From a virus: a stretch of DNA of 62,904 bases. The DNA lies in the IMG/VR virus record IMGVR_UViG_3300046536_000196, positions 1-62,904 of that record; one strand, given 5' to 3'. The notes beneath the pieces are model-generated. The model did no database searches and had not been told where the DNA came from. It saw nothing but the letters and a program-made list of their open reading frames with translations. Below are positions 6,600 through 62,904 of the stretch, in pieces; positions within the stretch are counted from its first letter, which is position 1, and each line of letters starts with the position of its first letter. The position numbers were made by a program, and so were the translations under genes.

Positions 6600-6636
6600 C
6601 GAAGACCAAGAGAGACGGCTTGGTGGAGACTGGTTG

Positions 6637-6725
6637 TGGGTGAGGAAGGAATTGAACCTCCACCGCTTCGTGAGCACTACGGATTTACAGTCCGCGCCGA
6701 CCTAACCAATATTCGGCTCTCACCC
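6637..6725 (-). tRNA. tRNA-Tyr (GUA)
   Basis: On the minus strand the acceptor arms GGGTGAG (6725-6719) and CTCACCC (6644-6638) pair. The anticodon arm reads GGACT-GTA-AATCC, giving anticodon GTA (Tyr). A long variable arm (TAGTGCTCACGAAGCGG region) fits a class II tRNA, and the T-arm GGAGGTTCAATTCC is canonical. CCA is not encoded (discriminator A, then CAA). It probably supplements host Tyr decoding; it is followed by a strong terminator. Confidence 0.9.
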
Positions 6726-7286: not shown

Positions 7287-7715
7287 TTACGCAAAATACA
7301 GCCGAGTTGCAACATTTCCACGCAGTTTTTTTTCGAGCTCGTCTCGCGCTTCCGCCAGCACGGTCTCGTAATCGGCATTCGTGAACCTCCACACCGTCGC
7401 GATACGCTGGCTTTTGCAGATCGCCCAGCGATGCTGCGTGCTCAGGCTGTCGACCATCGCGTTGACCGCTTCCCCCATCCTCAGGTCCGCAATGTATTGC
7501 GCCTCACCGACCGTTGCATCCGAAGGCGCATCGCCAATGAGCTTCATGCCGCAGGAGCTCAGCTTAAGGTCCGGGACGCGCATGAAATCGACCCAGCACG
7601 CCATCAGCAGCGCGTACGGATCAGGCTTGTCGAAAGCCGGGCGCGCGACCTCTTCGCGACGAACTCGGCGCAGACCAGGCGAAGCAAAAATGCGGGGCGA
7701 TGCGATGGCGTTCAT
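7287..7715 (-). CDS. Late antiterminator/late regulator candidate (Q-like, DUF1133-type)
   Basis: 142 aa, last gene of the leftward early operon. The C-terminal half (AVNAMVDSLSTQHRWAICKSQ, then ATVWRFTNADYETVLAEARDELEKKL) resembles DUF1133/antitermination-like proteins that precede the late genes in lambdoid phages of proteobacteria. Position supports this: it is followed by a terminator, tRNAs and the whole late operon, which contains many intrinsic terminators. If correct it modifies RNA polymerase to read through them. The family call rests on pattern memory; a HMM search would settle it. Confidence 0.55.
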   Translation of the reverse strand: MNAIASPRIFASPGLRRVRREEVARPAFDKPDPYALLMACWVDFMRVPDLKLSSCGMKLIGDAPSDATVGEAQYIADLRMGEAVNAMVDSLSTQHRWAICKSQRIATVWRFTNADYETVLAEARDELEKKLRGNVATRLYFA

Positions 7716-7854: not shown

Positions 7855-8352
7855 TCATGCCGCCTCTCGCCTGCGAATGAGCCACGCAATTACAAGCGCC
7901 CAGGCCACGCCACCAGCGACCTTCGCCAGCAGCTGCGCGAGTACGATTGATGGCAGCGCCGATCCGAAAGCGAGCAAGGGAAAAGCAAGCGAGTCCACGG
8001 CAGCGCCGGCAACGTTTGATCCGTTGACGCGTACCGCCCACGACCGCCCGTGCAACCAGTGGTAACCCAACGCATCAGCGAGCGACGCCAAGCTAAACGC
8101 GATGACTGATGCTGCCGCGATTCGGCCGCTTGCCGGGTTCAGCGCATACGACAGCAAGCCGGCAGCCGAGATCAGCCCGAGCATGCGCGGCCAAAGGTTC
8201 CAGCCGGTCCACAGGTCATGCAGGCGGTCGCGCAGCGTTAGGTCTAGCCCGATCAGCAGGAATGCGATGACAGGCATCGCCACAGGCCCGAGTGACGCGA
8301 CCAACAGATTGGCGGCGACCAGCGCACCGAGGTAAATTACGACGTAGATCAT
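7855..8352 (-). CDS. VUT/YhhQ-type transporter (7-deazaguanine precursor uptake)
   Basis: 165 aa with four to five membrane spans. The signature SNVAGAAVDSLAFPLLAFG (about 108-126) and an early RDRLHDLW match the VUT family, whose bacterial member YhhQ imports queuosine precursors such as preQ0/preQ1 across the inner membrane. It overlaps the stop of the upstream dpdA-like gene by 4 bp, which ties the two functions. No preQ0 synthesis genes (folE, queD, queE, queC) are in the genome, so imported or host-made precursor would feed the transglycosylase. It is about half to two thirds the size of E. coli YhhQ but keeps the key motif. Confidence 0.8.
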   Translation of the reverse strand: MIYVVIYLGALVAANLLVASLGPVAMPVIAFLLIGLDLTLRDRLHDLWTGWNLWPRMLGLISAAGLLSYALNPASGRIAAASVIAFSLASLADALGYHWLHGRSWAVRVNGSNVAGAAVDSLAFPLLAFGSALPSIVLAQLLAKVAGGVAWALVIAWLIRRREAA

Positions 8353-9098
8353 GCTGCCTCCTCAAAAAGTGATTGTTGCGCGGGCTTGTGAGCCAATCGC
8401 GTCGCGATGTTGTCGGTATAGCGCGCTGCCTCACGCCAGTCGTTGGCATTGCGACCTTCGCGGCGCGCGGCGAAACTCCAGGCCATGCTGTCGGCCGTAT
8501 GAAGTAGCGCAGTAATGTGTGGCGAGGAGAGCGCGGTCGCCTTGAGTCCGAAACCATGCAGCCGTAAATCGGGCCGCGCGTCCTTGATCGCCTGAAGCAC
8601 GCGCATGATTGCTGCCGGATCACCATTGCGCTTACAGACCGATCCGACGCCGACCCACATGCCCTCCTTCAGTCGGTCGCCGTACATTTCGAGGTGGCGC
8701 ACGTAATCACTTGGCGCGTAACCCTGGAGCACGGGCAGGATGTAGACGCCGCCGGTGTCGCACTGCACAAGAGCGTCATAGCGTTCCACGGTCAAGCGCT
8801 GATGTTCGGGGATCGTCAGCCCGGTGATCTTGAGCATATGGGCCTCGCACATGTAGTCCTGGGCTACAGCTGCGAGCAAGTTGCCATTGGTGGACCAGCG
8901 CTTGATCTCAGCGGCGTATTCTTCGACGCCCTCGGTGTAACCACCATGCCTCAAAATTTGGGTAAAGGCTGCGCTGTCCATGATCCACTCATGGACCGGG
9001 AAGCCAGACTTTCTGCCACGCAGGCGATTGCGACTGACGAAGGCGCGCGGCACTCGATCGGCATCACATGGCTGATGCATTCCTGTGAAAAAGTCCAA
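8349..9098 (-). CDS. dpdA: DpdA-like 7-deazaguanine DNA transglycosylase
   Basis: 249 aa from a TTG at 9098, chosen because GGGGG lies 6-7 bases upstream and the domain begins at once (LDFFTGMHQP); an ATG at 9080 is an alternative. Conserved blocks include WIMDSAAFTQ with a candidate catalytic Asp, AVAQDYMCE, GGVYILPVLQGY and WVGVGSVCKRNG, the pattern of phage DpdA / TGT-like enzymes. These swap guanine in DNA for a 7-deazaguanine base (dPreQ0 or derivative), which protects phage DNA from restriction. It is coupled to the VUT transporter. The exact base made cannot be told from sequence. Confidence 0.8.
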   Translation of the reverse strand: MDFFTGMHQPCDADRVPRAFVSRNRLRGRKSGFPVHEWIMDSAAFTQILRHGGYTEGVEEYAAEIKRWSTNGNLLAAVAQDYMCEAHMLKITGLTIPEHQRLTVERYDALVQCDTGGVYILPVLQGYAPSDYVRHLEMYGDRLKEGMWVGVGSVCKRNGDPAAIMRVLQAIKDARPDLRLHGFGLKATALSSPHITALLHTADSMAWSFAARREGRNANDWREAARYTDNIATRLAHKPAQQSLFEEAA

Positions 9099-9100
9099 AG

Positions 9101-9520
9101 TCAAACCCCCAGCGCCGCAAACGGACTCGCGGCCCGGCGCGGCGGAACTGGCTGGCCCTTCCTCCGATGCCACTCGGCGCGGTACTTTTCGCAGCGCTTG
9201 GCATGGCGCGCCGGGTCAGCCAAGATGCGTGCAAATACCTCGTCAGGCGTCAGTCGCTTGGGCTTCTTCTTGTTCGGCGCATGCCCGGCGCGGAACACCG
9301 GGATCTTACGGAACGTCGCCTCGTCCTCGACCCAGGCGCAGATGTGGATGCGCCGCGGCGACTGCCTGACCATGTGCCACAGGTAGCGGCTGACGGTCTG
9401 CTTGTGGACGTGGAGCTTGGCGGCGACCTCGGTCCAGATCATGTCTTCGACCTCCAGCAATTCGACGATGCGGTCCATTTTCACCAGGGCGGGACGCTGG
9501 GTATAGGTGTTTCTGGTCAT
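9101..9520 (-). CDS. Helix-turn-helix DNA-binding protein
   Basis: 139 aa. Residues 15-50 (MDRIVELLEVEDMIWTEVAAKLHVHKQTVSRYLWHM, read in two parts) form a recognisable HTH of the resolvase/MarR-like kind. The rest is basic and rich in Lys/Arg (NKKKPKRLT, HAKRCEKYRAEWHRRKGQP), suggesting DNA binding. It sits between rusA and dpdA in the leftward operon; its target is unknown. The stop is 3 bp before the dpdA start. Confidence 0.65.
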   Translation of the reverse strand: MTRNTYTQRPALVKMDRIVELLEVEDMIWTEVAAKLHVHKQTVSRYLWHMVRQSPRRIHICAWVEDEATFRKIPVFRAGHAPNKKKPKRLTPDEVFARILADPARHAKRCEKYRAEWHRRKGQPVPPRRAASPFAALGV

Positions 9521-9954
9521 CAGGCAGCCTCCCCGCCCGTTTCCATGACCCTGACAACCGCGCCCGGCGTTTCGCTATACCGCTTCTCCAGCATGATCCG
9601 CACGACCTGCGCATCGTCGCGCCAGACGATCCCATTACAGCCGTCCTTGACGCCCTTGAGCACATTGTCAGCGTCGGGCTTCTTGGTAGCGGCGATCGCG
9701 CCCGCTGCGGCCCGCTCGCGGCGCTTCCTCGACCAACTGGCCGGAATCTGCATGTTCAGCGTGACGGACAGGGCGACAGGCGCTGCGGTCGGCTCCGTGC
9801 CGCACATCGCAAGCGTCGCCGCCATCTTGACAAGGTTTTCGTAGCTCGCGGTTTTGGCTGGCGTGTAGGCGACGACATGCGCGCCGCGCCGCGCGAACTT
9901 CGGACGCCCCTTCGCCACGGGCTGGCCGGGAATGGTGAATGCGATCTCCATCAC
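9520..9954 (-). CDS. rusA: RusA-like Holliday junction resolvase
   Basis: 144 aa. It opens with the RusA fold start (EIAFTIPGQPVAKGRPKF) and carries the acidic cluster KPDADN (D94, D96) plus WRDD (D113, D114), which bind the catalytic metal. Usual length is about 120 aa. It cuts four-way junctions during recombination and replication and works with NinB, NinG, RecT and the exonuclease encoded elsewhere in this genome. Start and stop overlap both neighbours by 1-4 bp. Confidence 0.9.
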   Translation of the reverse strand: MMEIAFTIPGQPVAKGRPKFARRGAHVVAYTPAKTASYENLVKMAATLAMCGTEPTAAPVALSVTLNMQIPASWSRKRRERAAAGAIAATKKPDADNVLKGVKDGCNGIVWRDDAQVVRIMLEKRYSETPGAVVRVMETGGEAA

Positions 9955-10271: not shown

Positions 10272-10609
10272 GGAAGCGTATCCTCAAAGGTTTCGTGCTG
10301 TTCGCCGACGAGCCGCAGCTTGCCGACGTTCTCGCAGCTCAGCATGCTCAGGCGCAGGCCGATGTTGTTGCCGGGTCCAAGCTGGTTCGCCAACCAACCA
10401 ACGCAGTGCGCATCCTCGGTTTCATGGCAGGCCATCACGTTTAGTGGAGCGCCAAGCGCCGGCAGCGCGCCGGGGTCAGCAATCGTGCTGGCGAGCCCTC
10501 GGTGCTTCGTCTCGCAGTAGCCATTGGGGATGTCGTACGGATCGACATCCTTGCGCCACGGGCATTTGGCGCACTGCGCCGTGCGCTTGAGCTTCCACTT
10601 TTCGCTCAT
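10268..10609 (-). CDS. Cys-rich hypothetical protein (DUF6283-like)
   Basis: 113 aa. The N-terminal CAKCPWRK plus later C/H residues (GYCETKH, VMACHETEDAHCVGWL) suggest a metal-binding site, as in the DUF6283 group of phage and actinobacterial proteins. Function unknown. It overlaps both neighbours by 4 bp in the leftward operon. Confidence 0.6.
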   Translation of the reverse strand: MSEKWKLKRTAQCAKCPWRKDVDPYDIPNGYCETKHRGLASTIADPGALPALGAPLNVMACHETEDAHCVGWLANQLGPGNNIGLRLSMLSCENVGKLRLVGEQHETFEDTLP

Positions 10610-11424
10610 GGCTTAGCCGTCCCGCGCAGGTAGCCAATGAGCGGTGCGAACTTGGGCGCCAGTTCCTCGGCTTTAAAGCTGCCGCCGCTGTCGATTTCCT
10701 TCTGGATGGCGCGCACCAAGTCGGCCGGCGTATTGCCTTCGATCTGTTTGGCCGTCACCTTGCGCTTGCCCTGCAGGCGCGCGGCTTGCTGCGCCTCTTT
10801 CAGCGCCGGGCCCGCGTCCTCGCCCTTGTCCTTGACTACCTTGACCGCCGTGGTCTTGGAGACTTCGCCGTCCCGCACCATCTGCTGAACGTCGTGGTTC
10901 GCGCCGGCCAGGACGAGCGCTTGCTCGACGGTCGACACCGAGCACTGCATGCCTTCGGCGATCTGCTTGGCGCTCTGGCCAAAGCCCGAATGCGCGCGGC
11001 GGCAGATTTCCGCGAACTGCAGCGGCTTCATCTTCTTGCTCTTGTTGCTGGTGGCGATGCGGTACAGCCGGTCCAAGTCGTTGCCGACGAACTGGCGAAC
11101 CGGGATCAGCCTGCGGCCCTTGTCGTCCGACGCAAAGTGCCCCGCCTCGATGGCGCGACCGATCTGCTTGTGCCGGCGGTGGCCGTCCACGATCCAGACG
11201 CCGCCCTCAGCGCGCGGGCGCACCTCCAGTTGCGGAAGGGCCAGCACGCCGTTCTTGACGATGTACGCGAACAGCTCCTCGTCGTCGGCCTCGTCCTCGT
11301 CGTTGCGGCCTGGCGGATTGAAGTCAGGCTCGATGTGGATGTTACGGTAGTCGATCTTCTCAGCGTCGGCGCGCACCAATTCGCCGTCGATGCGCATCTG
11401 CTTGAATGATTTGGCGGTAGTCAC
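10606..11424 (-). CDS. ParB-like nuclease-domain protein, copy 1
   Basis: 272 aa from a GTG at 11424 with AAGGAAG seven bases upstream; the open frame continues upstream but only as a shadow of the MazG-like gene. Residues about 40-105 hold the ParB N-terminal box (PPGRN..., LPQLEVRP, VDGHRRHKQIGRA). A HTH follows (QSAKQIAEGMQCSVSTVEQAL, 151-171), then a basic tail. Members bind DNA and some hydrolyse CTP. In phages such proteins occur in replication or modification modules; a plasmid-type partition role is unlikely because there is no ParA partner. Confidence 0.75.
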   Translation of the reverse strand: MTTAKSFKQMRIDGELVRADAEKIDYRNIHIEPDFNPPGRNDEDEADDEELFAYIVKNGVLALPQLEVRPRAEGGVWIVDGHRRHKQIGRAIEAGHFASDDKGRRLIPVRQFVGNDLDRLYRIATSNKSKKMKPLQFAEICRRAHSGFGQSAKQIAEGMQCSVSTVEQALVLAGANHDVQQMVRDGEVSKTTAVKVVKDKGEDAGPALKEAQQAARLQGKRKVTAKQIEGNTPADLVRAIQKEIDSGGSFKAEELAPKFAPLIGYLRGTAKP

Positions 11425-11480
11425 GAGGTCTCTTCCTTGTTGTCGTTGTCGTAGCCGCCCGGGATGGCCGGGCGGGGTGG

Positions 11481-11876
11481 TCAGTACGCTTTGCCGCCAG
11501 CGGCAGCACGGTTCTCCGGCTTGTGGTCGGCGCGCTGGGCGTTGTAGGCCAGCTTCTCGGCGATCGCGCCCGCAAGATCGAGTCCGTAGCCGCCTGCCAG
11601 ATCGAAGATGCGAATGGCTGCGTCGGCCAACTCGACCTCGCGCATCGAGCGATGCGGCAGCTTGTCGTCCATCAGGTTCTTGCGGTCGCCTTCCATCGCC
11701 TCGCTGATCTCCGAATGGATCAGGCACAGCTTGTTCGAGAAGTGCAGCGGGTTCGCCTTGCTTGTGTTCGGGTCGAAATCGTTCCACCAACCGGCGTCGC
11801 GCGCCGCACCGTGGCATACCATCGTCAACACCTCGGCGGCGTTCTGCGCGTGGCGGTGGTCATTTCTCAGCTCCAT
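11481..11876 (-). CDS. MazG-like nucleotide pyrophosphohydrolase
   Basis: 131 aa. The helical pattern with LIHSEISEAMEGDRK (metal-binding E-x-x-E-x) followed by REVELADAAIRIFDLAGGYGLDL matches the MazG-like/all-alpha NTP-PPase group (EExxE then ExxD). It would hydrolyse (d)NTPs or ppGpp-like alarmones during infection. It lies 56 bp upstream of the parB-like gene on the same strand. Substrate not predictable. Confidence 0.75.
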   Translation of the reverse strand: MELRNDHRHAQNAAEVLTMVCHGAARDAGWWNDFDPNTSKANPLHFSNKLCLIHSEISEAMEGDRKNLMDDKLPHRSMREVELADAAIRIFDLAGGYGLDLAGAIAEKLAYNAQRADHKPENRAAAGGKAY

Positions 11877-13721: not shown

Positions 13722-15211
13722 GCCCGTTTGGCCTTTGCAAAAGCGATGGCGCGCGAACGGACCCAGTTCAGGACGGCCGGCGATGCTTCCATGGGCGGAA
13801 CGTCGCGGTCATCCGGCCATTCGCCGAACTTCTCCTTGAACTTGTTCGCAGCCCATCCCGGCTTGTATCCGCGCGTCTCGGCGATGTGGCGCAGTTGCGC
13901 ATGAAAGGCGCGCTTCTCTTCCGGCGATGGTCCCGCTTTCTTTTTTCCCGTCAGTTCGCTCAGGGTGCCATCGCGGTGCTCGACAGTGCTTGCTTTCTTG
14001 TAGGTATGGCCACAGGATGGGCAATCCGGCATCGGCTTGTGGACATGCGCGCAGTTCGGGCACTTGACCGGCTCGCGCTCTTTCGCCTTGGGCTTCTTGG
14101 CTTCCTTCTTGGCGCCATCGTCCAGCTCCGTGACGCCGACTTCGAGGAAGTCGTGCATCTTGTCCCAGAAGCGGACGCAGTTGCCGCTGTGGTCGAGCAC
14201 GATGCACTCGGTCTTACCCGGGTGGATGCGCAGGCCGCGCCCAAGGATCTGGATGTGCTCGGCCAGACTGTTCTTGAGCGGGCGAGCCATAATGATCACC
14301 TCGACGTCGGAAACGTCAAAGCCCTTGCTCAAGGCGCTGACACTGATCAGGCCACGGATCGAGCTATCCGGCTTGCGGAACTCTTCTACCAGGGCGGTGC
14401 GCGCATCGTTACCGGTGCGATAGGTGTACATCTCGCACAGCACGCCAGCCGCAGCAAACTGGCGCTGCATTTCTTCGCAATGGGCGACGTTGCAGCCGAA
14501 GGCGATGAACTTCTTGCCCTGGCCGTGGCGCAGGTACTCTTCGACGCAATCGCCGATGATCGGCATCGAGCGATCGGCGGCTTCCGTATCAGTCCATTCG
14601 CCAGCTACGGTTTTCGCGCCGGTCATATCCGGTTCGCTGGCGGCGAAGATGCGGAACGGAACGAGGTACGGCGTGCGCGACCCGTCGTTCATCATCGGAC
14701 CCTGGATCAGTTCATTCGTCGTGATGACGGTCACGATGCCGTCGTAGAGATTGCCGAGCCCCTTCGTCATCGGCGTGGCAGTCAGCCCGATCACGATGGT
14801 GTCGCGGCCCTTGATGCGCTCGGCAACGGTTCGCTGTATGGCATGGCACTCGTCAACGATGATCAGGTCCGCTTCGGGCCAGCCGCGCCGGTCCAGGGTC
14901 TGCGCGCTCGCCACCTGGATGCGCTCCCACGGCTTGCAGCGCCAGTGATCGCCCTGCATGACGCCGTGCGGGATGCCGTACAGGTCGAACGTCGCGCTTG
15001 TCTGGTCGATCAGGGCGATCCGGTCGGCGACGAACACGGCGCGCTTGCCGGGCTTGGCATGGCACTCGGCCATCAAGTGCGATGCGACCACGGTCTTACC
15101 GCCGCCAGTAGGAATGGACAGAATCATGTTGCGCACGCCTTGGCGGATCAGGTTGCGCAAGCCGTCGATGCTTTCGAGTTGGTACGGGCGCAGTTCGAGG
15201 AGCTTGCTCAT
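13718..15211 (-). CDS. DEAD/DEAH-box superfamily 2 helicase
   Basis: 497 aa. Motif Q-like RPYQLESID (8-16), Walker A PTGGGKT (34-40), motif II DECH (120-123), motif III LTATP (about 139), motif VI QILGRGLR (about 338-346). A two-CxxC zinc ribbon (CPNC...CPSC) follows near residue 405. Resembles the phage replicative helicases of the SSL2/Res-domain group that accompany a TOPRIM primase. It probably unwinds DNA at the replication fork. Overlaps neighbours by 4 bp on each side. Confidence 0.9.
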   Translation of the reverse strand: MSKLLELRPYQLESIDGLRNLIRQGVRNMILSIPTGGGKTVVASHLMAECHAKPGKRAVFVADRIALIDQTSATFDLYGIPHGVMQGDHWRCKPWERIQVASAQTLDRRGWPEADLIIVDECHAIQRTVAERIKGRDTIVIGLTATPMTKGLGNLYDGIVTVITTNELIQGPMMNDGSRTPYLVPFRIFAASEPDMTGAKTVAGEWTDTEAADRSMPIIGDCVEEYLRHGQGKKFIAFGCNVAHCEEMQRQFAAAGVLCEMYTYRTGNDARTALVEEFRKPDSSIRGLISVSALSKGFDVSDVEVIIMARPLKNSLAEHIQILGRGLRIHPGKTECIVLDHSGNCVRFWDKMHDFLEVGVTELDDGAKKEAKKPKAKEREPVKCPNCAHVHKPMPDCPSCGHTYKKASTVEHRDGTLSELTGKKKAGPSPEEKRAFHAQLRHIAETRGYKPGWAANKFKEKFGEWPDDRDVPPMEASPAVLNWVRSRAIAFAKAKRA

Positions 15212-16152
15212 GCCGTCCTCCGCGCGCTCAAGGCCGGGAGAATTTCGGCATTGGAGATCACGCCCAGGGCCTTGCGGATCTTCGCCAGCAGTTCGTTGGC
15301 GTACCGCGCCTGACCCTGCGCCTCATTCGCGGTGCGCACCAGTTGTGCATTGCGGCCTGAGAGCTGGTCGAACTTTAGCGACCAGTCGGCGACTTCTTTT
15401 GCGAGGTCCGCGCCATTGGAGAGCGTATCCACCACTTGCGACAGACGGCGGATTTCCTTGTCGGCGGCGACGAGCTCGGCAGCGAGATCGGGCGCATCGT
15501 CATCAGCCTCGGCAGTAGCGAGTTGGGGCGGCGCGACTGGAGACGGCGCCGCAATAACAGCCGACGTCGATTCATTGACGGGATGCGGTGCTGGATGCGC
15601 AGGCGGAACCGGTGCGACATCCTGTTTTGGAGCCGCAGTGGAATCGGATTCCACTTTGTTAAATTTAGACGCTACACTAAGTTCACGATTTTCCTGCTGC
15701 CGGGCCGATGCGACTGGCGAGCGGACTGCCGCTACGAATGGATGGCTCACGTTGCACTGGCGCGCGATCTCGCGGTCACTCCAGGTCGACCATTCCGGGT
15801 CGCTCAGCATCGTCATTACCGCGCGGCGCTTATCCTCGTTCGTGCGGCGTAGGCCGTGCGAGGCGTTCGCTCCGACCGAAAAGAGAACAGCATCACGCTG
15901 CGTACCGGTGCGGATCTCGGCGGCGATTTCGATAGCGCCGGCTTGGCGGTGCGCGTGGTAACGGTGGAAGCCATCGGCGAGCCAGAAGTTCACGCCGTCA
16001 AAGAACATCACGACCGGCGGTAGATCGGTGCCCTGGCGGATCGTCTCAGCGTATTCGGCGATGGTCGACTGGTTAAGTTCGACGCGAGATTGCGTGCCGC
16101 CATTGATGCGGACGCTATCGAGTGGGACGTTATCAATTTCGTTCATCGTCAT
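15208..16152 (-). CDS. ParB-like nuclease-domain protein, copy 2
   Basis: 314 aa from ATG 16152; ATG 16146 fits the GGAAAG ribosome site better, and a TTG at 16161 is also in frame. Residues 5-90 are a ParB/Srx-type domain (SVRINGGTQSRVE, LADGFHRYHAHRQAG). A HTH follows at about 120-145 (SDREIARQCNVSHPFVAAV), then a Pro/Ala-rich linker and a C-terminal coiled coil (230-300). Distinct from copy 1 in length and sequence. Likely DNA-binding; its place next to the helicase suggests a replication role. Confidence 0.75.
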   Translation of the reverse strand: MTMNEIDNVPLDSVRINGGTQSRVELNQSTIAEYAETIRQGTDLPPVVMFFDGVNFWLADGFHRYHAHRQAGAIEIAAEIRTGTQRDAVLFSVGANASHGLRRTNEDKRRAVMTMLSDPEWSTWSDREIARQCNVSHPFVAAVRSPVASARQQENRELSVASKFNKVESDSTAAPKQDVAPVPPAHPAPHPVNESTSAVIAAPSPVAPPQLATAEADDDAPDLAAELVAADKEIRRLSQVVDTLSNGADLAKEVADWSLKFDQLSGRNAQLVRTANEAQGQARYANELLAKIRKALGVISNAEILPALSARRTA

Positions 16153-16256
16153 GCTTTCCAAAGGTTGAATCGCGCAAACACGCGCGCTGCGGTAGTTGCG
16201 CTAATCAGGTCGCGGCAGTACATCTGGATGACGATGCGCTTGAGGATGGTCTTCAT
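16149..16256 (-). CDS. Hypothetical small protein (35 aa)
   Basis: ATG at 16256 (MKTILKRIVIQMYCRDLIS) to TGA at 16149, with 4-bp overlaps on both sides. One helix, basic start. Its coupled stop/start with both neighbours is the main support. Function unknown. Confidence 0.45.
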   Translation of the reverse strand: MKTILKRIVIQMYCRDLISATTAARVFARFNLWKA

Positions 16257-23589: not shown

Positions 23590-23853
23590 ATGAACTGCAA
23601 CTGCCTGAACGAAATCGAAGCCAAGCTGACCGAGCATGTCGCAAAGCAGGGCGTGGTCAATCCGCGCGTGAGCCCTGAATTCTTGGGCATCAACTTTGGC
23701 GATGGCGGTTCCACGATCATCAATCTCGTCTACACCGTGCGGGGCGACAACAAGCCCTATAACACGCAGAAGGGCAAGCCGCTCAACATGGTTGCTTCGT
23801 TCTGCCCGTTTTGCGGCAAGTCGGCCAAGAAGGCCGTAGCGGAGGCTGCATGA
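23590..23853 (+). CDS. Hypothetical protein with Cys pairs (87 aa)
   Basis: MNCNCLNEIEAKLTEHVAKQ with an early CNC, then a C-terminal CPFCGKSAKK, suggesting a zinc site made from both ends. The middle is beta-rich. The stop overlaps the next start by 4 bp. Function unknown. Confidence 0.55.
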   Translation: MNCNCLNEIEAKLTEHVAKQGVVNPRVSPEFLGINFGDGGSTIINLVYTVRGDNKPYNTQKGKPLNMVASFCPFCGKSAKKAVAEAA

Positions 23854-34197: not shown

Positions 34198-34246
<49 letters not shown>

Positions 34247-34372
34247 ATTCTGTTGCGTTCCAGAACGTTCCGCAACGTCCCATAAGGATTGAAATTCTCA
34301 GAAAATTCAGTCACTTATCTTTCGTCATTGTCCCACAGCATTCCAAGCTGTACCATACGAGCCAACGAATCT

Positions 34373-34425: not shown

Positions 34426-35856
34426 ATGGCTAAACTGACACAGCGAACACTTGAGGCGATCCGACCGGATCAGACCGGGACAACCATACGCGACGAGGGC
34501 GGGCTGTTTGGTCGCGTGCGCGCCAAGGCAGACGGCGCCGTAACCGTGTCATTCTACTACCGCTACCGTTTCGATGGGAAACTGAAAGATTTCTCTTGCG
34601 GCACGTGGCCTGGTGACAGCCTCTCGGCGATCCGGTCCGCGCGAGACGGAGCCCGATCAAAAGTCGCGGACGGCATCGACCCTGCCGCTGACAAGAAGGT
34701 GGCGCGGCATGAACAGAAAGAATCGGTAGCAGCCAAGCTGGCCGAGATCGAGGCCGCTCGCACTAAGGCACTCACCGTCAACGACCTGTACGACGCATGG
34801 ATAGTGAATGGGGTGCGCAGGAAAGACGGAAACGCCGAACTCAAGCGCCTATTCACCACCCATGTCCTGCCAGCGGTTGGGCGCGTGGCGGTAAGAGCGC
34901 TGACTGAAGATGATGTGCGCGATGCCCTGCGAAGTCTGGTTGAGCGTGGAATTGACCGGACAGCCGTCGTGGTCTACAGAAGCCTCAGGCAGACGTTCGC
35001 TTGGGCGCAGCTGCGGCAGCCGTGGCGCGCACTCATGGTCAACGGGAATCCTCTCGACCTGATCGAGATTGAAAAGGTCGTGTCGCCAGACTATGACATG
35101 GATAACCAGAGCACCAGAGTGCTTTCACCCGAGGAGATTGCTGAGCTGCGCGACCTATTGCAGCGGGCCGAGGATGATTTTGCAAACGCAACCAATAAGC
35201 GGCGCGCGCGCAGGCCGCTGGAGAAAGCCACGCAGCGAGCAATCTGGATCATGCTGTCAACGCTGTGCCGCGTGGGCGAGTTGAGCATGGCGCGATGGAA
35301 GGACGTCGATTTGGCGACCGGCGAATGGTTTATTCCGAAGGCCAACACTAAAGGCAGTTTGGCCGACTTCCAGATTTACCTATCCCCTTTCGCGCTCGTG
35401 CAATTCCAGGCACTGCACGCAATTACTGGCCATTCGGATTGGTGTTTTCCTTCGAATGAAGGTGAGAGCCATATCGATACAAAATCAATCACAAAGCAGA
35501 TTGGCGATCGGCAGGCGAGATTCAAAAAGGCGAAGGATGGCGGCCCGAGAAAGGCAATGAAAAACCGGAGGAATGACGATACGCTCGTTTTGGCCGGCGG
35601 GAAAAATGGACGCTGGACGCCACACGATCTGCGCCGGACTGGCGCGACGATGATGCAGGCGCTTGGCGTGCCACTTGACACTATCGACCGTTGCCAGAAT
35701 CACGTGCTTGGCGGGAGCAAGGTGCGGCGCCACTACCTGCACCACGACTACGCAGATGAGAAGCGCGAAGCGTGGCGCCTATTAGGGGCGCGACTGTCGG
35801 AGATATTGCAGCCGGACGATCAGGGTAATGTCGTGCCGCTGAAGCGATCAGCTTGA
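34426..35856 (+). CDS. int: Tyrosine integrase (DUF4102/P4-type)
   Basis: 476 aa. N-terminal DUF4102 arm-binding part (MAKLTQRTLEAIRPDQTGTT, 1-95), a SAM-like core (115-205), and the catalytic domain with R282 (LCRVGEL), H400-R403 (HDLRR), H426 and the nucleophile Y437 (RRHYLHH). The domain is complete, so the enzyme should be active. It lies about 180 bp from the tRNA-Pro core and next to the arm repeats. Residues 235-265 carry an extra Arg-rich insertion. Transcription is rightward, possibly with early genes. Confidence 0.95.
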   Translation: MAKLTQRTLEAIRPDQTGTTIRDEGGLFGRVRAKADGAVTVSFYYRYRFDGKLKDFSCGTWPGDSLSAIRSARDGARSKVADGIDPAADKKVARHEQKESVAAKLAEIEAARTKALTVNDLYDAWIVNGVRRKDGNAELKRLFTTHVLPAVGRVAVRALTEDDVRDALRSLVERGIDRTAVVVYRSLRQTFAWAQLRQPWRALMVNGNPLDLIEIEKVVSPDYDMDNQSTRVLSPEEIAELRDLLQRAEDDFANATNKRRARRPLEKATQRAIWIMLSTLCRVGELSMARWKDVDLATGEWFIPKANTKGSLADFQIYLSPFALVQFQALHAITGHSDWCFPSNEGESHIDTKSITKQIGDRQARFKKAKDGGPRKAMKNRRNDDTLVLAGGKNGRWTPHDLRRTGATMMQALGVPLDTIDRCQNHVLGGSKVRRHYLHHDYADEKREAWRLLGARLSEILQPDDQGNVVPLKRSA

Positions 35857-50777: not shown

Positions 50778-51566
50778 CTAGGTGACGTGTACCCAGGCTG
50801 TGCGCTTGATTACACGACTTATTAGGCCCTCGCTTACGCCGTATTCTTCGGACAGTGCGCGTATTGACTTGGCGCTTGATCGAATGCGCTGGACCTTTTC
50901 GTCATCCAGCTTTGCAAGGGGGTGAGCCGTGCCTTTTACCCGGTTCCCATTGTCGATCCGCCCATTTGAGTAGGCCGCCTGCGTCAGGTCTAGGTGCCTC
51001 CACTCTTCGTTCCTGTGTATCAGGCTAACTTGACTCTGCGATATTCCATAGTCTTGCGCAATCACCCACTGCGGGCGCTTATCAAGACGTATTGCGGCGA
51101 CTTGCGCCTCCGTGAGCTTCGTGCTTGAAAAGTCCGAGCCTTTCGATTGCCTATTCTTGCTCAGTTTGTCCAGCATGTTGTCCGCGTTGGTCCCGATGAA
51201 CAAGTGGTCTGGATTGATGCATGCAGGGGTATCACAACGATGGCACACATGCATGCCGTCAGGTATTGCTCCATGAGCGACTGCGTAAGCCAATCGGTGC
51301 GCCAAGAATACCTTCCCGTCCACTCCAAGCCTGCCATATCCAGACTTGTTCGTACTTGCGGTCCACAGCCAGCATCCCGTGGCGGCATCTACTTTGGAGA
51401 AGTGTTCCAGACGCTGACTTAGGGTCATGTGTCCGGTGTATAGACTTTCCGAAAAAGACCCCGATTTTCGCGCCTGCTCGTAATGCGTACTGCACAATCC
51501 GCGCGCTTGGACCTTCTTGCCGCAGATGGAGCATTCCTTCGGGTATGGTATTCTTGCATCAGCCAT
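50778..51566 (-). CDS. HNH homing endonuclease-like protein
   Basis: 262 aa. The N-terminus has two Cys pairs (CSICGKKVQARGLCSTH). HNH core: GRLGVDGKVFLAHRLAYAVA, GMHVCHRCDTPACINPDHLF. The C-terminus carries repeated helix-turn-helix units (LDKRPQWVIAQDYGISQSQV, SIRALSEEYGVSEGLISRVI), as in phage homing endonucleases. It starts MADA and is preceded by an 87-bp leader identical to the one before the GIY-YIG gene at 59506. It sits between tail tube and tail chaperone genes. Confidence 0.85.
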   Translation of the reverse strand: MADARIPYPKECSICGKKVQARGLCSTHYEQARKSGSFSESLYTGHMTLSQRLEHFSKVDAATGCWLWTASTNKSGYGRLGVDGKVFLAHRLAYAVAHGAIPDGMHVCHRCDTPACINPDHLFIGTNADNMLDKLSKNRQSKGSDFSSTKLTEAQVAAIRLDKRPQWVIAQDYGISQSQVSLIHRNEEWRHLDLTQAAYSNGRIDNGNRVKGTAHPLAKLDDEKVQRIRSSAKSIRALSEEYGVSEGLISRVIKRTAWVHVT

Positions 51567-51645
51567 GATGACCTCTCAGACAGGTTGTTTGGTTAGAGCT
51601 CGCTTCGTGTTGGTAGCACTTAGCGGGCTCGTCTATTTTACGCCT
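51559..51645 (-). repeat. 87-bp leader repeat, copy A
   Basis: Identical over 87 bp to 59499-59585. On the minus strand it begins 5 bp after the tail tube stop region and runs into the first codons of the HNH gene. It holds a hairpin GAGC...GCTC (51630-51596) with inner helices GC/GC and GUG/CAC, and a second small stem in which ACCU pairs with AGGU next to the GAGAGG ribosome site. It may control translation of the homing gene. Confidence 0.85.
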
Positions 51646-51650
51646 ATTGA

Positions 51651-52868
51651 TCAGGCCGCACTATCTTGGATAGACACAATCGTCATATCTGATGCCAGCG
51701 CCGGGCCGCCGGCCGCATTCAGCTGCGCCGTGAAGGGGTACGTACGCATGATCGCCTTCTCGCCGTCGTCGGGCGCGTCATCCGTCAGCTTGATGGCCGA
51801 CAGGTTGATGGCGACGAAGCCGGCGCCGTTGGTCGTATCCGCAGCCATCACGGCAACCAGCGAGGTAACGGTCTCGTTGTCGTACAGCGCACCGATGGTC
51901 GTGCTGTCGAACAGCGCCGAGAACGTGCCGGTCACTTCGATGCGACCACGCGACATGTCCGGGTTAAAGTTCGTTCCGACGACGGGGCCGATAGCAGTAA
52001 GGTTGCCCTTGATGGTCATCGAGATACTGGTGACACCCATCTGCTCGACGCCGTTGACCAGCACTGCACCACGGACTGCGGTCAGGACCGGGGTAGCGGT
52101 GGCCGGCGTCGGCGAAGTAAGCACTTGCGTGTTGCCACGTGTGCGCACGCCCAGGCCTTGTGACGCAAGCTTGATGGTGGCGTTGCCGCTCGCCGGCAGG
52201 CCGATGTCGCACTGGCCGATGCGCAGGTCGGGGAACACTTCGCTCTTCTGGATGTCGCCATACCACTCTTCGACCGTGAACAGGGTATCAGTGTGACCGG
52301 TCAGCGGCGCCATGGTCTTTTTGCCGAGGACCGTCATGGTGGCAGTGGCAATCGGACCTTCCGCCACCAGCGCCGAACTGTTGATGGTCAGAACGGTCGC
52401 GACGGTCGCTGTCAGCGACGTGACGAGCAGGTTGTTGTTGAGGTTCGCGGCATTGAACGCGCCAGCAGTCAGCCCAACCACGTCGCCCTGTTTCACGCCG
52501 TCGGTCAGGTACGACCCGGTTGCGCGGGTGACAGTGTAGGTCGGGCCGGTTCCTGCGATGGTCAACGATGCCGCAGTGGTGACGGCGCCGGCAGTGAACA
52601 CCTTGCGCAGCAGGCTGGCGAGTGGGGCTGCGTACGTGCCAGGCGACAGCAGGCCATCGAAGTCCCAGGAGGTCGATGCGGTGCCCAGGTTGACGCCGGT
52701 CGACTGCTGGTGCTGGACGATCTCATCGTTCGTGTAGGTCGCACGCGATTTCTTGCCGATCGAGGTCTTGCGGCGCAGGACCTGCCCGCCTGCGCCAGTG
52801 GCGGGAATACCAAGGCCGGTTTGGGCCTTCAGTACGGTAATTTTCTGTATGCCTTGTGCGACGGTCAT
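51651..52868 (-). CDS. Major tail tube protein
   Basis: 405 aa. MTVAQGIQKITVLKAQTGLG then GKKSRATYTNDEIVQHQQST and TVEEWYGDIQKSEVFPDLRI match phage tail tube proteins of this type. A central Ig-like or insert region (TVTRATGSYLTDGVKQGDVV) explains the long size. Polymerises on the tape measure. The stop is followed at once by the homing gene leader. Confidence 0.8.
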   Translation of the reverse strand: MTVAQGIQKITVLKAQTGLGIPATGAGGQVLRRKTSIGKKSRATYTNDEIVQHQQSTGVNLGTASTSWDFDGLLSPGTYAAPLASLLRKVFTAGAVTTAASLTIAGTGPTYTVTRATGSYLTDGVKQGDVVGLTAGAFNAANLNNNLLVTSLTATVATVLTINSSALVAEGPIATATMTVLGKKTMAPLTGHTDTLFTVEEWYGDIQKSEVFPDLRIGQCDIGLPASGNATIKLASQGLGVRTRGNTQVLTSPTPATATPVLTAVRGAVLVNGVEQMGVTSISMTIKGNLTAIGPVVGTNFNPDMSRGRIEVTGTFSALFDSTTIGALYDNETVTSLVAVMAADTTNGAGFVAINLSAIKLTDDAPDDGEKAIMRTYPFTAQLNAAGGPALASDMTIVSIQDSAA

Positions 52869-58483: not shown

Positions 58484-59506
58484 TCAACTTGAGGGAGCGG
58501 GCACCTCAGCGTTACTAGCCTTCGCCAACAAGGCTCTTGCAACTCGCTTTTTTGCCGCTGCCGACATCCGAGCCCTCTGCTCAGCGGTCCGCTTCTGGCC
58601 GATTCTCTTCGCCGTGGCGCGCTCCACTGCTTCACGCGGCATCACCCTGCCAATCCGAGGATCAACGTACCCAGGTTGCGCGATAGCTGCTGCATGAGCG
58701 GCTGATATCTTCCGCTTGGTCTCTTCGCTAATGGTCTTGCCAGTGTTTATCGCCGACAGCAGGGCTTTTGTCGTGTCTGGAGTTACGTAACCTTTGCGCG
58801 CACGTGATATTTTTTCCGCACGAGCGCTCCAATCTGAGCGGATTGGCTTGATCCTCCCTGCCTTCACCCATCTTAAATATGTGCTAGAGCCTATCCCTGC
58901 TAGACGGCAAATTTCAAGCAGCGGCAGGGACTCGTCCCTTACCGATTCGAACCTCTTGATCCGCTCGAGAGTTTGCTCCTCGCGCCTAGCGGCGACAGCT
59001 AGGGCAGCGGCAGTTTTTGGAGCGCCAGCCCTAGCCTTTGCTTTTTCCGAGATTCTCTCCCGTGTTTCATCGGAGCAGATTCGCCCCATGAGGGAAGCTG
59101 ATCTCTTTGCATTTTGCTCTGGTGTTGACCCCCTTCCAAGGCGCGCATTTCGCATCTTTAGACGGGACTCTGGTGAGGTTTTTACACCGAGCCTACTGCC
59201 GGCTTTGGCACATATGTTGAGCCCGCTCGGTCCGCACGCGCCAAGCGAATCTATCCAATGTTGTTCGCGTTGCAGCAGTAAGGATTTTTCTGGAACTAGT
59301 TCGACAATCTCTAGCGCAAATGCAGCTTCGCCATATTTGCTCCACGACCTCTGTAATTTCTGCGAGTGATGCTCACCCTTCCGCAGCTCTCGCAAGTGAT
59401 TTTCCCATCTCTTCTTCAGATTGACGGCGCTGCCAACGTATATCTTGCCGTTGACCGTATTTCGAATTTGATAGATGCCGGATTGCGCTAGAATAGCGTC
59501 AGCCAT
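58484..59506 (-). CDS. GIY-YIG homing endonuclease-like protein
   Basis: 340 aa. GIY-YIG domain at 8-95: SGIYQIRNTVNGKIYVGSAV (GIY...YVG), RWENHLRELRKGEHHS (Arg/His) and a Glu in LEIVELVPEKSLLLQ-REQHW. After it come several NUMOD3-type DNA-binding modules (SPESRLKMRNARLGRGSTPE, SEETKRKISAAHAAAIAQPG). It starts MADA and has the same 87-bp leader as the HNH gene at 51566. It sits right after the minor head protein gene. Confidence 0.88.
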   Translation of the reverse strand: MADAILAQSGIYQIRNTVNGKIYVGSAVNLKKRWENHLRELRKGEHHSQKLQRSWSKYGEAAFALEIVELVPEKSLLLQREQHWIDSLGACGPSGLNICAKAGSRLGVKTSPESRLKMRNARLGRGSTPEQNAKRSASLMGRICSDETRERISEKAKARAGAPKTAAALAVAARREEQTLERIKRFESVRDESLPLLEICRLAGIGSSTYLRWVKAGRIKPIRSDWSARAEKISRARKGYVTPDTTKALLSAINTGKTISEETKRKISAAHAAAIAQPGYVDPRIGRVMPREAVERATAKRIGQKRTAEQRARMSAAAKKRVARALLAKASNAEVPAPSS

Positions 59507-59585
59507 GATGACCTCTCAGACAGGTTGTTTGGTTAGAGCTCGCTTCGTGTTGGTAGCACTTAGCGGGCTCGTCTATTTTACGCCT
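59499..59585 (-). repeat. 87-bp leader repeat, copy B
   Basis: Perfect copy of 51559-51645. On the minus strand it begins immediately after the minor head gene stop (TGA then GGCGTAAAATAGACG). It contains the same hairpin (59570-59536) and ribosome site. The two endonucleases behind it are unrelated (HNH and GIY-YIG), so the leader itself appears to be a shared or mobile part. Confidence 0.85.
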
Positions 59586-60772
59586 CAGTTCGTGTATTTC
59601 GCTCTCAAATCCGAAAGTTTTAGCGGCCTGCCGGACATATCGACTAAGTCCCTTGGGGTTAATGCTCCGCGCCTGAACAGCTCCGCGCGCCCCGGGCCGA
59701 GCACTTCGTTCTGATAGTCCTCGCCCTTCATCTTCAGGTAGTCTGCAAACGTCGTCTTGGCACTGATCGGGCCGTTTGACGATGCGCGCATACCCGGATC
59801 AGGCTCGTCCATGTCGATGCCCATCTCGCGCAGCGTCTTCATCAGCGCGATTTCGCTCGAGCGACAGTTGAAGTGCCTCGGAACGCCGCCGTTGTACGGC
59901 AGATCGTTGCCGTTGATCGGGTTGTAATCGTGATCCCAGCAGGCTCCGCTGTAGGCGATGCAGGTCAGGCTGGTATGGCCGTCTAACGTCGATACCTGCA
60001 TGATGCCGTTAGTGATGTCACGATTCATCTCGAAGGTCTTGCGCCGCGCCGCTGCTGCCACCGTGGCCGTACTGGTCTGCACGATCGCCGCGGCGTTCTT
60101 CCTCGCCAGCGGCATGATGCCTGGTGGCCCGACTCCATCAGCAGGCGCCTTCGCTGTCACCTCCTGCCCGACGATGCGCTTGATGATCTGCGCGTTTGTC
60201 TCGCCCTGCGCCGCGCCGATGCGGATCTCGTTGGCGAGCTTGAACTGCGTGTTCTGCGCCTGCCGAAGCCACCAATTCTTTGCCGGTGAGCCCTGGATCA
60301 GCGCATCACTCGCCAGCTTATTCAGGTAGTTCTCGCTCGGCAGTTGCGCGCCCAAGCGGATTTCGATGGACGTCTGCACAGCTTCAGCGCTCGCCTCCGC
60401 GCGCAGTTCGGCGATTGCGGCCTTGAGTTCTGACTGCGCGGGCAGTTCAGCATCGGGTCTTAAATCGACCACTTTGGCCAGCGCATCCTGCACACCCAGC
60501 GCTTCGACTTGTGCCACCTCGCCAAGGTCAAGCTCCGCTTGCGCCTTGCCGTAGTACTTAGCGATCAGTTCGTTCGACTCGCGCAGCAGCGCGTTCTTAC
60601 CGGCCTTGCCGAGCATCGACAGTTCCGGAGCATTCGCCAACAGGCTCACGATATCGCGCTGCATCAGCACCAGGGCCGCCATCACGCGCGCCTTTGCCTC
60701 GGCTTCGGCGCGGAGCATGTCGACGTGCTGAGCGAGCAGCAGCTCCATCAGGAACTGTTCAAGGGCGCTCAT
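59585..60772 (-). CDS. Minor head protein (SPP1 gp7/MuF-like)
   Basis: 395 aa. Helical N-terminus (MSALEQFLMELLLAQHVDML), a central ANEIRIGAAQGETNAQIIKR, and the gp7 signature near residues 265-320 (TSLTCIAYSGACWDHDYNPI with VPRHFNCRSSEIALM). It is packaged into the head with the portal and aids ejection. The stop is used as insertion point for the GIY-YIG cassette. Overlaps the portal stop by 4 bp. Confidence 0.85.
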   Translation of the reverse strand: MSALEQFLMELLLAQHVDMLRAEAEAKARVMAALVLMQRDIVSLLANAPELSMLGKAGKNALLRESNELIAKYYGKAQAELDLGEVAQVEALGVQDALAKVVDLRPDAELPAQSELKAAIAELRAEASAEAVQTSIEIRLGAQLPSENYLNKLASDALIQGSPAKNWWLRQAQNTQFKLANEIRIGAAQGETNAQIIKRIVGQEVTAKAPADGVGPPGIMPLARKNAAAIVQTSTATVAAAARRKTFEMNRDITNGIMQVSTLDGHTSLTCIAYSGACWDHDYNPINGNDLPYNGGVPRHFNCRSSEIALMKTLREMGIDMDEPDPGMRASSNGPISAKTTFADYLKMKGEDYQNEVLGPGRAELFRRGALTPRDLVDMSGRPLKLSDLRAKYTN

Positions 60773-62179: not shown

Positions 62180-62904
62180 TTAAATGTTCAGCGTGCGCAC
62201 GCCTGCTGTGCGCTTCACGATCGGCCAGCGCTTGACGATGAAGTAGCCGCCCGCATCGTTGGCATGGTCGAAGCCGCCCTTTTTGTCCGGCTCGCCCTTG
62301 TCGTCGTACACCTGGCGCTCAAGGCACAACGTGTATTTCTGACACTTATTCGTGTTGACTAGGAATCGGCGCTCGTCGTACGTGTTGCACAGCATCGCGT
62401 TGACACTGTTGATGCGGTCCTTCACGCCCGGATTCGCGCTGTCCACGACGACCGTAAAGTCCGCCTTACGCAGCAGCGACAAGTCGGACTCGCTCGCATT
62501 GCTACTCTTTCGGTTCTGCCCTGAGGCATCCGGATAAACCGATACGGTGTGGCTGGCGAACTTCGCCTTGATCTTCTCGATCATTGCCGGCGTATCAAAC
62601 ACCTCCGTGAATTCATCCACTGCACGCGGAAGATCGTCGCGGATCACGAAGACCACTGCGGCCATCTTGCCCACGTTGAAGTCCATGCCGATGTGGAGCG
62701 CATCGCCCTTGCGCACAATGTCGTCAGTGTGATTCCGCCGACGATCAAAGCAGTAATAGATGACGCCCTGGTAGTTCTCGAAGCTCGCCAGATACTCTTG
62801 GCGGAACGTGCGCGGGTCCATCTTCCGGCGCGCAGCCTCAATTTCTTCCGCCGGGACGTTGCCGCCATCAACCGACGTGTACAGCCAGCTTTTATGGTCA
62901 GGCT
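62180..62904 (-). CDS. terL: Terminase large subunit, C-terminal nuclease part (start at 713)
   Basis: Continuation of the terL frame that starts at 713. It holds the RNase H-like nuclease with Asp in LHIGMDFNVGK (D270 of the joined protein), SVYPDASG (D321) and FDHANDAGGYF (D408/D412). Bases 62778-62904 are the duplicated end of the contig, so codons 182-223 appear twice in the window. It ends with the stop at 62180, followed by the portal gene. Confidence 0.95.
   Translation of the reverse strand, partial: PDHKSWLYTSVDGGNVPAEEIEAARRKMDPRTFRQEYLASFENYQGVIYYCFDRRRNHTDDIVRKGDALHIGMDFNVGKMAAVVFVIRDDLPRAVDEFTEVFDTPAMIEKIKAKFASHTVSVYPDASGQNRKSSNASESDLSLLRKADFTVVVDSANPGVKDRINSVNAMLCNTYDERRFLVNTNKCQKYTLCLERQVYDDKGEPDKKGGFDHANDAGGYFIVKRWPIVKRTAGVRTLNI
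62778..62904. repeat. Terminal direct repeat (contig ends overlap)
   Basis: 127 bp identical to bases 1-127. It lies inside terL and joins the frame perfectly, so it is best explained as assembly overlap of a circular or circularly permuted genome; 127 is a common assembler k-mer length. It is not likely a true short terminal repeat, because terL continues through it. Confidence 0.9.

Follow-up and report, generated by a model that had tools for sequence, protein, structure and literature searches.

The gene pair and its genomic context

The window, i.e. the whole 62.9-kb viral record that was analysed, carries a pair of overlapping genes on its minus strand. The first, dpdA (8349-9098), starts with TTG and encodes a predicted DNA 7-deazaguanine transglycosylase of the DpdA family (249 AA), as judged by PF23859, the fold and invariant residues. 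The second (7855-8352) starts with ATG and encodes a VUT/COG1738-like membrane protein with six predicted helices (165 AA; PF02592, PHROG 4899), which is a candidate 7-deazaguanine importer. The two genes share the four bases ATGA (8349-8352, minus strand), which hold the stop codon of dpdA and the start codon of the VUT gene; the 3' end of dpdA reads GCA GCA TGA and its stop is spanned by the VUT ATG. This 4-bp overlap had been described, with no strand given, in an earlier sequence-only reading of the window and was confirmed at the stated coordinates. It is read as translational coupling. A Shine-Dalgarno-like site, GAGGAGG (8357-8363, minus strand), is located 4 nt 5' of the VUT ATG and was graded as a strong ribosome site. 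The TTG start of dpdA is supported by its homologues, which begin at the same residue (first residues MDF/MRFFTG).

A helix-turn-helix-like gene for 139 AA (9101-9520, minus strand) lies upstream in the same direction, followed by a gene for a RusA-like Holliday junction resolvase (9520-9954, minus strand; PF05866, E 4.7e-37), which belongs to the conserved early region flanking the cassette. Because the stop codon of the helix-turn-helix-like gene is only 2 nt before the dpdA start, the pair appears to be part of a single early operon with rusA, ninG, primase and helicase genes. Two ParB-like proteins are encoded in the same early region (10606-11817 and 15208-16161, minus strand). The next gene downstream of the pair (7287-7715, minus strand; 142 AA) has no assigned function and a distant homologue in the related phage L294.

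A 127-bp direct repeat is found at both ends of the record (1-127 and an identical copy at 62778-62904), and the record is therefore probably a complete phage genome. It also encodes a P22-type coat protein and a terminase domain. The phage had been called temperate before, which agrees with a tyrosine integrase gene at 34426-35856 (plus strand; PF00589, E 1.4e-14; PF13356, E 8.7e-14). Near this gene, the minus strand of 34200-34260 resembles a tRNA 3' end (GGAGGTTCGAATCCTC...CCGACCA) and is bordered by TGTAGGGGTAAA repeats; this is a likely attP core. Elsewhere, two 90-bp copies of 99% identity (51556-51645 and 59496-59585) each adjoin a structural gene (51651-52868 and 59585-60772, respectively) and are possibly a duplicated control region. 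A Lar-like gene, which the sequence-only reading had combined with the pair to a compact anti-restriction set, could not be substantiated: the single CPFCG protein, encoded at 23590-23853, has no more than a zinc-ribbon match below the threshold, and the proposed set is likewise unsupported.

No match to dpdA or VUT was obtained in 25 coat-protein relatives (up to 100% identical; some of these records are short fragments). In the related phage L293, whose RusA is 71% identical, the cassette is absent; there, a slot of comparable length between rusA and the next conserved segment, downstream of rusA, is occupied by an ORF resembling HNH endonucleases and by further ORFs. Since close relatives are devoid of the pair, it is regarded as accessory cargo. 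The third-position GC content of dpdA (0.69) and VUT (0.73) is lower than that of the flanking early genes (0.81-0.86), which, together with the slot in L293, fits swappable cargo. The host is probably a member of the Burkholderiaceae, because relatives of the capsid protein (at most 58% identical) occur in Burkholderiaceae genomes and Paraburkholderia genomes carry a DpdA of 72-75% identity.

Sequence and modelled structure of the two proteins

Both family assignments of the sequence-only reading were upheld by HMM searches. The product of 8349-9098 matched Pfam DpdA (PF23859) with an E-value of 4.1e-40 and 138 bits (cut-off 27), and PHROG 1279 with an E-value of 6e-64. An AlphaFold (AF2) model, calculated from 34 aligned sequences, reached a mean pLDDT of 93.3. 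Among solved structures, the model came closest to 7ui4, a DNA preQ0 insertase DpdA from bacteria (VIA-align Z 19.2 and rmsd 3.3 over 227 aligned residues; Foldseek E 1.5e-6), and archaeal and bacterial tRNA-guanine transglycosylases followed at a short distance (Z 17.5-19.1). VIA-align rows with a Z difference below 1 were counted as tied, hence the fold alone cannot separate a DNA from a tRNA substrate. A profile search of solved structures by sequence returned no DpdA relative, whereas the fold comparison found one. The likeness to this bacterial dpd-island enzyme, whose reference activity is preQ0 insertion into DNA, lies in the fold; in contrast to the window protein, it has 413 residues, shares 14% identity and acts in an island with partner genes. 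None of these partners (dpdB/dpdC, dpdD-K) was detected among those neighbour ORFs of the window that were scanned, and a PADLOC defence-system search with the two proteins of the pair gave no match.

Six positions are invariant in the alignment of 34 DpdA relatives (D41, S42, D81, Q125, H181 and D203). They are expected to lie in the active site, and were matched to named residues of the tRNA enzymes by motif order. The CxCxxC zinc motif is absent from the 249 AA. When the DpdA clade of the window was compared to the DpdA of phage 9g and its relatives using hhalign, a probability of 99.5% and an E-value of 2.9e-23 were obtained. The motifs DSAAF, LHGFG and ADS of the window protein are paired with DSGAF, VHGFG and CDS of 9g, and H181 corresponds to the conserved His196 (VHGFG) in the profile alignment; most relatives have DSGAF, the window protein has DSAAF. 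According to Hutinet 2019, the DpdA of 9g, with its conserved His196, has been shown experimentally to insert preQ0 in DNA (PMC6884629). The assignment of the predicted dpdA product to the DpdA family is solid.

The VUT protein matched Pfam PF02592 with an E-value of 1.1e-13 (52.3 bits, cut-off 27.2) and PHROG 4899, a family listed without function, with an E-value of 4.1e-35. With 25.4 bits, it stays below the cut-off of 50.95 for the NCBI equivalog TIGR00697 (queuosine precursor transporter), and its putative substrate is therefore proposed from the neighbouring gene, not from its own sequence. In this family (VUT/QPTR), specificity differs, being preQ0/preQ1 in E. coli and queuine in Chlamydia (PMC11130926). 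The AF2 model (pLDDT 94.5) consists of six helices, all hydrophobic. Foldseek found no significant match for this model, and a sequence profile search among solved structures found no transporter relative. Using the second structure aligner, S components of ECF transporters were the best hits with Z up to 10.9, a value which helical bundles can reach by chance. Judged from profile matches and the predicted structure, the protein is a short relative of YhhQ with six helices, not a textbook YhhQ.

Precursor genes and distribution of the pair

Genes for precursor synthesis (folE, queD, queE, queC) had been reported missing, and the searches agree with this. The family models of QueC and QueD gave no match in the whole 62.9-kb record, phage 9g being positive in the same search, and phmmer with the FolE, QueD, QueE and QueC proteins of 9g found nothing in the window. 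The phage therewith differs from 9g-type phages, which have complete preQ0/archaeosine synthesis. Both QueC and QueD are absent in 20 of the 22 records searched, window included; the exceptions are the 9g control and L097. The latter record (G436) contains a VUT gene, the tentative third DpdA type described below and FolE-, QueE-, QueD- and QueC-like matches, i.e., a transporter together with synthesis. All four Paraburkholderia genomes carrying a close dpdA encode QueC, and the TIGR00697 transporter had no match in these four. We infer that a Paraburkholderia-like host would produce preQ0 to some extent and may be devoid of the usual importer.

For the survey of neighbouring genes, relatives of VUT rather than of DpdA were used as query. 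In 2.9 million viral contigs, 434 places matched, of which the best 80 were read; together with GenBank phages found with the same protein as query, they form 45 VUT clusters at 90% identity. As the query alignment consisted of VUT proteins whose DpdA neighbours had been recognised beforehand, and reading was confined to the 80 best of the 434 places, more distant VUT proteins are represented too sparsely. Within this set, a DpdA-like neighbour is present in 44 of the 45 phage VUT clusters. The remaining one, L052, has a close match among the VUT genes of Burkholderiaceae genomes. Among the 44 clusters (from the best 80 of 434 loci and GenBank), the partner is of the PEAT2/AB3P2/Lg3 type in 40, of the window clade in two and of a third type in two, and the DpdA gene comes first in 30 and the VUT gene in 14. 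Tested members of the PEAT2/AB3P2/T1-like (Lg3) subfamily have no Pfam match, and about 18 of its 40 clusters show a weak but significant phmmer match to 9g DpdA. The third type ('dpdC' of L054 and L097) is only tentatively DpdA-like (hhalign 90%, 56 columns). Further pairs with a window-clade dpdA are those of the window itself, L017 and phiLM21. The paired phages include unrelated ones, i.e. T1-like and Obolenskvirus phages.

As a control, the same VUT profile was used on bacteria and gave strong matches in 398 Burkholderiaceae genomes; DpdA adjoins VUT in one of the 20 loci read (L269, with a window-clade dpdA). Thus, this VUT subfamily is tied to DpdA nearly always in phages, and not always overall. 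The difference between 44 of 45 phage clusters and 1 of 20 Burkholderiaceae loci supports a functional link, and gives strong comparative support to the earlier suggestion that the transporter supplies the transglycosylase. In the reverse direction, a VUT neighbour is found for 13 of 104 window-clade DpdA ORFs (redundant loci included; about 7 VUT clusters), hence a window-clade dpdA usually works, or persists, without VUT. The label 'window-clade dpdA first' changes four times on the VUT tree, at least two of the changes being forced by well-supported branches; therefore, VUT has probably been paired with the window DpdA clade on more than one occasion.

Some further observations were made in the survey. 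The Pfam-less DpdA-like subfamily that is the main partner of phage VUT is exemplified by L187 (8291-9118), L186 (4019-4846), L184 (6290-7111) and L026 (2710-3459), and is annotated as 'hypothetical' in T1-like (Drexlerviridae) phages. A scan with a T1-like VUT alignment gave one locus, on the contig of L031. At L270-L288, Burkholderiaceae genomes have short VUT genes of the phage-like kind that no DpdA gene adjoins; the one of L285 is flanked by housekeeping-type genes.

Neither phages with dpdA only nor phage homologues of YhhQ are new, as both are known from reports of 2018-2019, and the uniqueness implied by the sequence-only reading does not hold. In Hutinet 2019 (PMC6884629), 76 of 182 viruses related to 7-deazaguanine (~40%) have DpdA and no synthesis genes, and the window resembles group 3 of that work (DpdA present, FolE/QueD/QueE/QueC absent, a YhhQ homologue in some phages). 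Uptake of an exogenous precursor is already proposed there. The sections of that paper used here give no chemistry for a phage with dpdA and VUT, and YhhQ homologues are said there to have 'no correlation' to any of the groups, whereas 44 of the 45 clusters examined here (best 80 of 434 loci and GenBank) adjoin DpdA. Pantoea phage Vid5 was the first phage reported with a putative preQ0/preQ1 transporter, in 2018, together with a salvage hypothesis; unlike in the window, this transporter is part of a larger que cluster and most similar to a bacterial VUT protein of Erwinia (PMC6266253). Pectobacterium phage PEAT2 (gp18-gp19, NC_044940) has overlapping adjacent genes annotated as VUT and queuine tRNA-ribosyltransferase, with a VUT 47-48% identical to that of the window, and is also without QueC/QueD. 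In PEAT2, however, the order is reversed and the transglycosylase belongs to another subfamily, with 20% identity and without a match to Pfam DpdA. Sinorhizobium phage phiLM21 (gp25-gp26, NC_029046) shows the same order and similarly tight spacing (1-bp overlap), its DpdA is of the window clade (56-60% identical) and the adjoining gene is Pfam Vut_1; this VUT, however, is annotated as 'hypothetical' and only 35% identical, and the host is alphaproteobacterial. The near-constant adjacency across DpdA classes looks new, though recent literature may already describe it.

Proposed salvage-fed DNA modification and its alternatives

With a probability of about 0.68, we consider the pair to be a salvage-fed 7-deazaguanine DNA modification cassette, which would sit in the early operon as exchangeable cargo of a temperate phage. 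In the proposed mechanism, the VUT protein would transport a 7-deazaguanine base, such as preQ0, preQ1 or a closely related compound, over the inner membrane and would thereby supplement the supply which the host makes for queuosine. DpdA would then exchange guanines in DNA for that base by transglycosylation, a reaction proposed from family and fold. DNA modified in this way would be cut less well by restriction enzymes, in line with other phages, for which Hutinet 2019 describes 7-deazaguanines as a shield against restriction (PMC6884629). The phage would need no synthesis genes, because the base would come from the host or the environment. The same source describes two phages with dpdA only: the DNA of Orion, whose host cannot make preQ0, is unmodified and that of phage 7-11 contains traces only (PMC6884629). 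This suggests that precursor supply limits the reaction; a transporter would solve the supply. The results for these two phages nevertheless count against the cassette, as do the score of the VUT protein below the TIGR00697 cut-off, the VUT neighbour of just 13 of 104 window-clade DpdA ORFs, and DSAAF in place of the usual DSGAF.

Four other explanations were weighed. The same cassette may handle another base: VUT would import, for instance, queuine or a 7-deazaguanine in its amido or carboxy form, a 'singleton' DpdA would insert it, and the DNA would contain a base different from dPreQ0/dPreQ1. The varying specificity of VUT/QPTR proteins mentioned above and the distance of the window VUT from the TIGR00697 model are in favour, as is a possible divergence of singleton DpdAs, which Hutinet 2019 leaves open (PMC6884629); yet no specific residue or neighbour gene suggests such a base and no modifying enzyme lies beside the pair, so we regard this as unlikely. 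It is very improbable that the transglycosylase acts on tRNA and forms, with VUT and a tRNA-Tyr, a phage queuosine system tuning translation. Such a tRNA with the queuosine-type anticodon GUA is indeed encoded 1.1 kb from the pair (6636-6725, minus strand), and the DpdA fold is common to tRNA-guanine transglycosylases. The best structural match, though, is the DNA enzyme (with Z barely above the tRNA enzymes), the CxCxxC zinc motif is missing, Pfam DpdA was matched and the tRNA-enzyme family was not, and a tRNA-Tyr is also found in the related L294/G407 (14233-14324), a record in which neither dpdA nor VUT was matched.

Lysogenic conversion, in which VUT would aid the host in salvaging queuosine precursors and dpdA would be adjacent through a shared cargo slot, would suit a temperate phage and the related short VUT genes without dpdA in Burkholderiaceae genomes. 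A shared slot would not, however, yield a pairing in 44 of 45 clusters (best 80 of 434 loci and GenBank) of unrelated phages, and QueC genes are already present in the four Paraburkholderia genomes examined, so that this explanation is scarcely to be credited. Least credible of all is a decaying, idle cassette which, lacking synthesis genes, leaves the DNA unmodified as in Orion, or nearly so as in 7-11. Both frames are open, the catalytic positions are invariant among 34 relatives, and the strong ribosome site and the coupling are retained; moreover, Paraburkholderia genomes encode QueC, in contrast to the Orion host, which is described as unable to make preQ0 (PMC6884629).

Beyond the window, salvage-fed DNA modification might be a widespread phage strategy, in which a short VUT (PHROG 4899) is combined, in unrelated phages, with two or more DpdA classes that have diverged from each other, one of them devoid of a Pfam match, partners having been exchanged and the order flipped; the odds for this broader reading are judged to be even. 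If it is true, virion DNA chemistry would depend on 7-deazaguanine bases from the host or its neighbours. The modification of DpdA-only viruses was left open in 2019, and the near-constant pairing of DpdA and transporter offers a clean test: paired phages are predicted to be modified when the precursor is available, and otherwise not. A function would also be provided for an unnamed phage protein family (PHROG 4899). With such a salvage-fed cassette, a phage may mask its DNA against the defences of bacteria although it does not make the modified base itself, and, if this is true, phage restriction resistance would be linked to nutrients that the microbial community shares.
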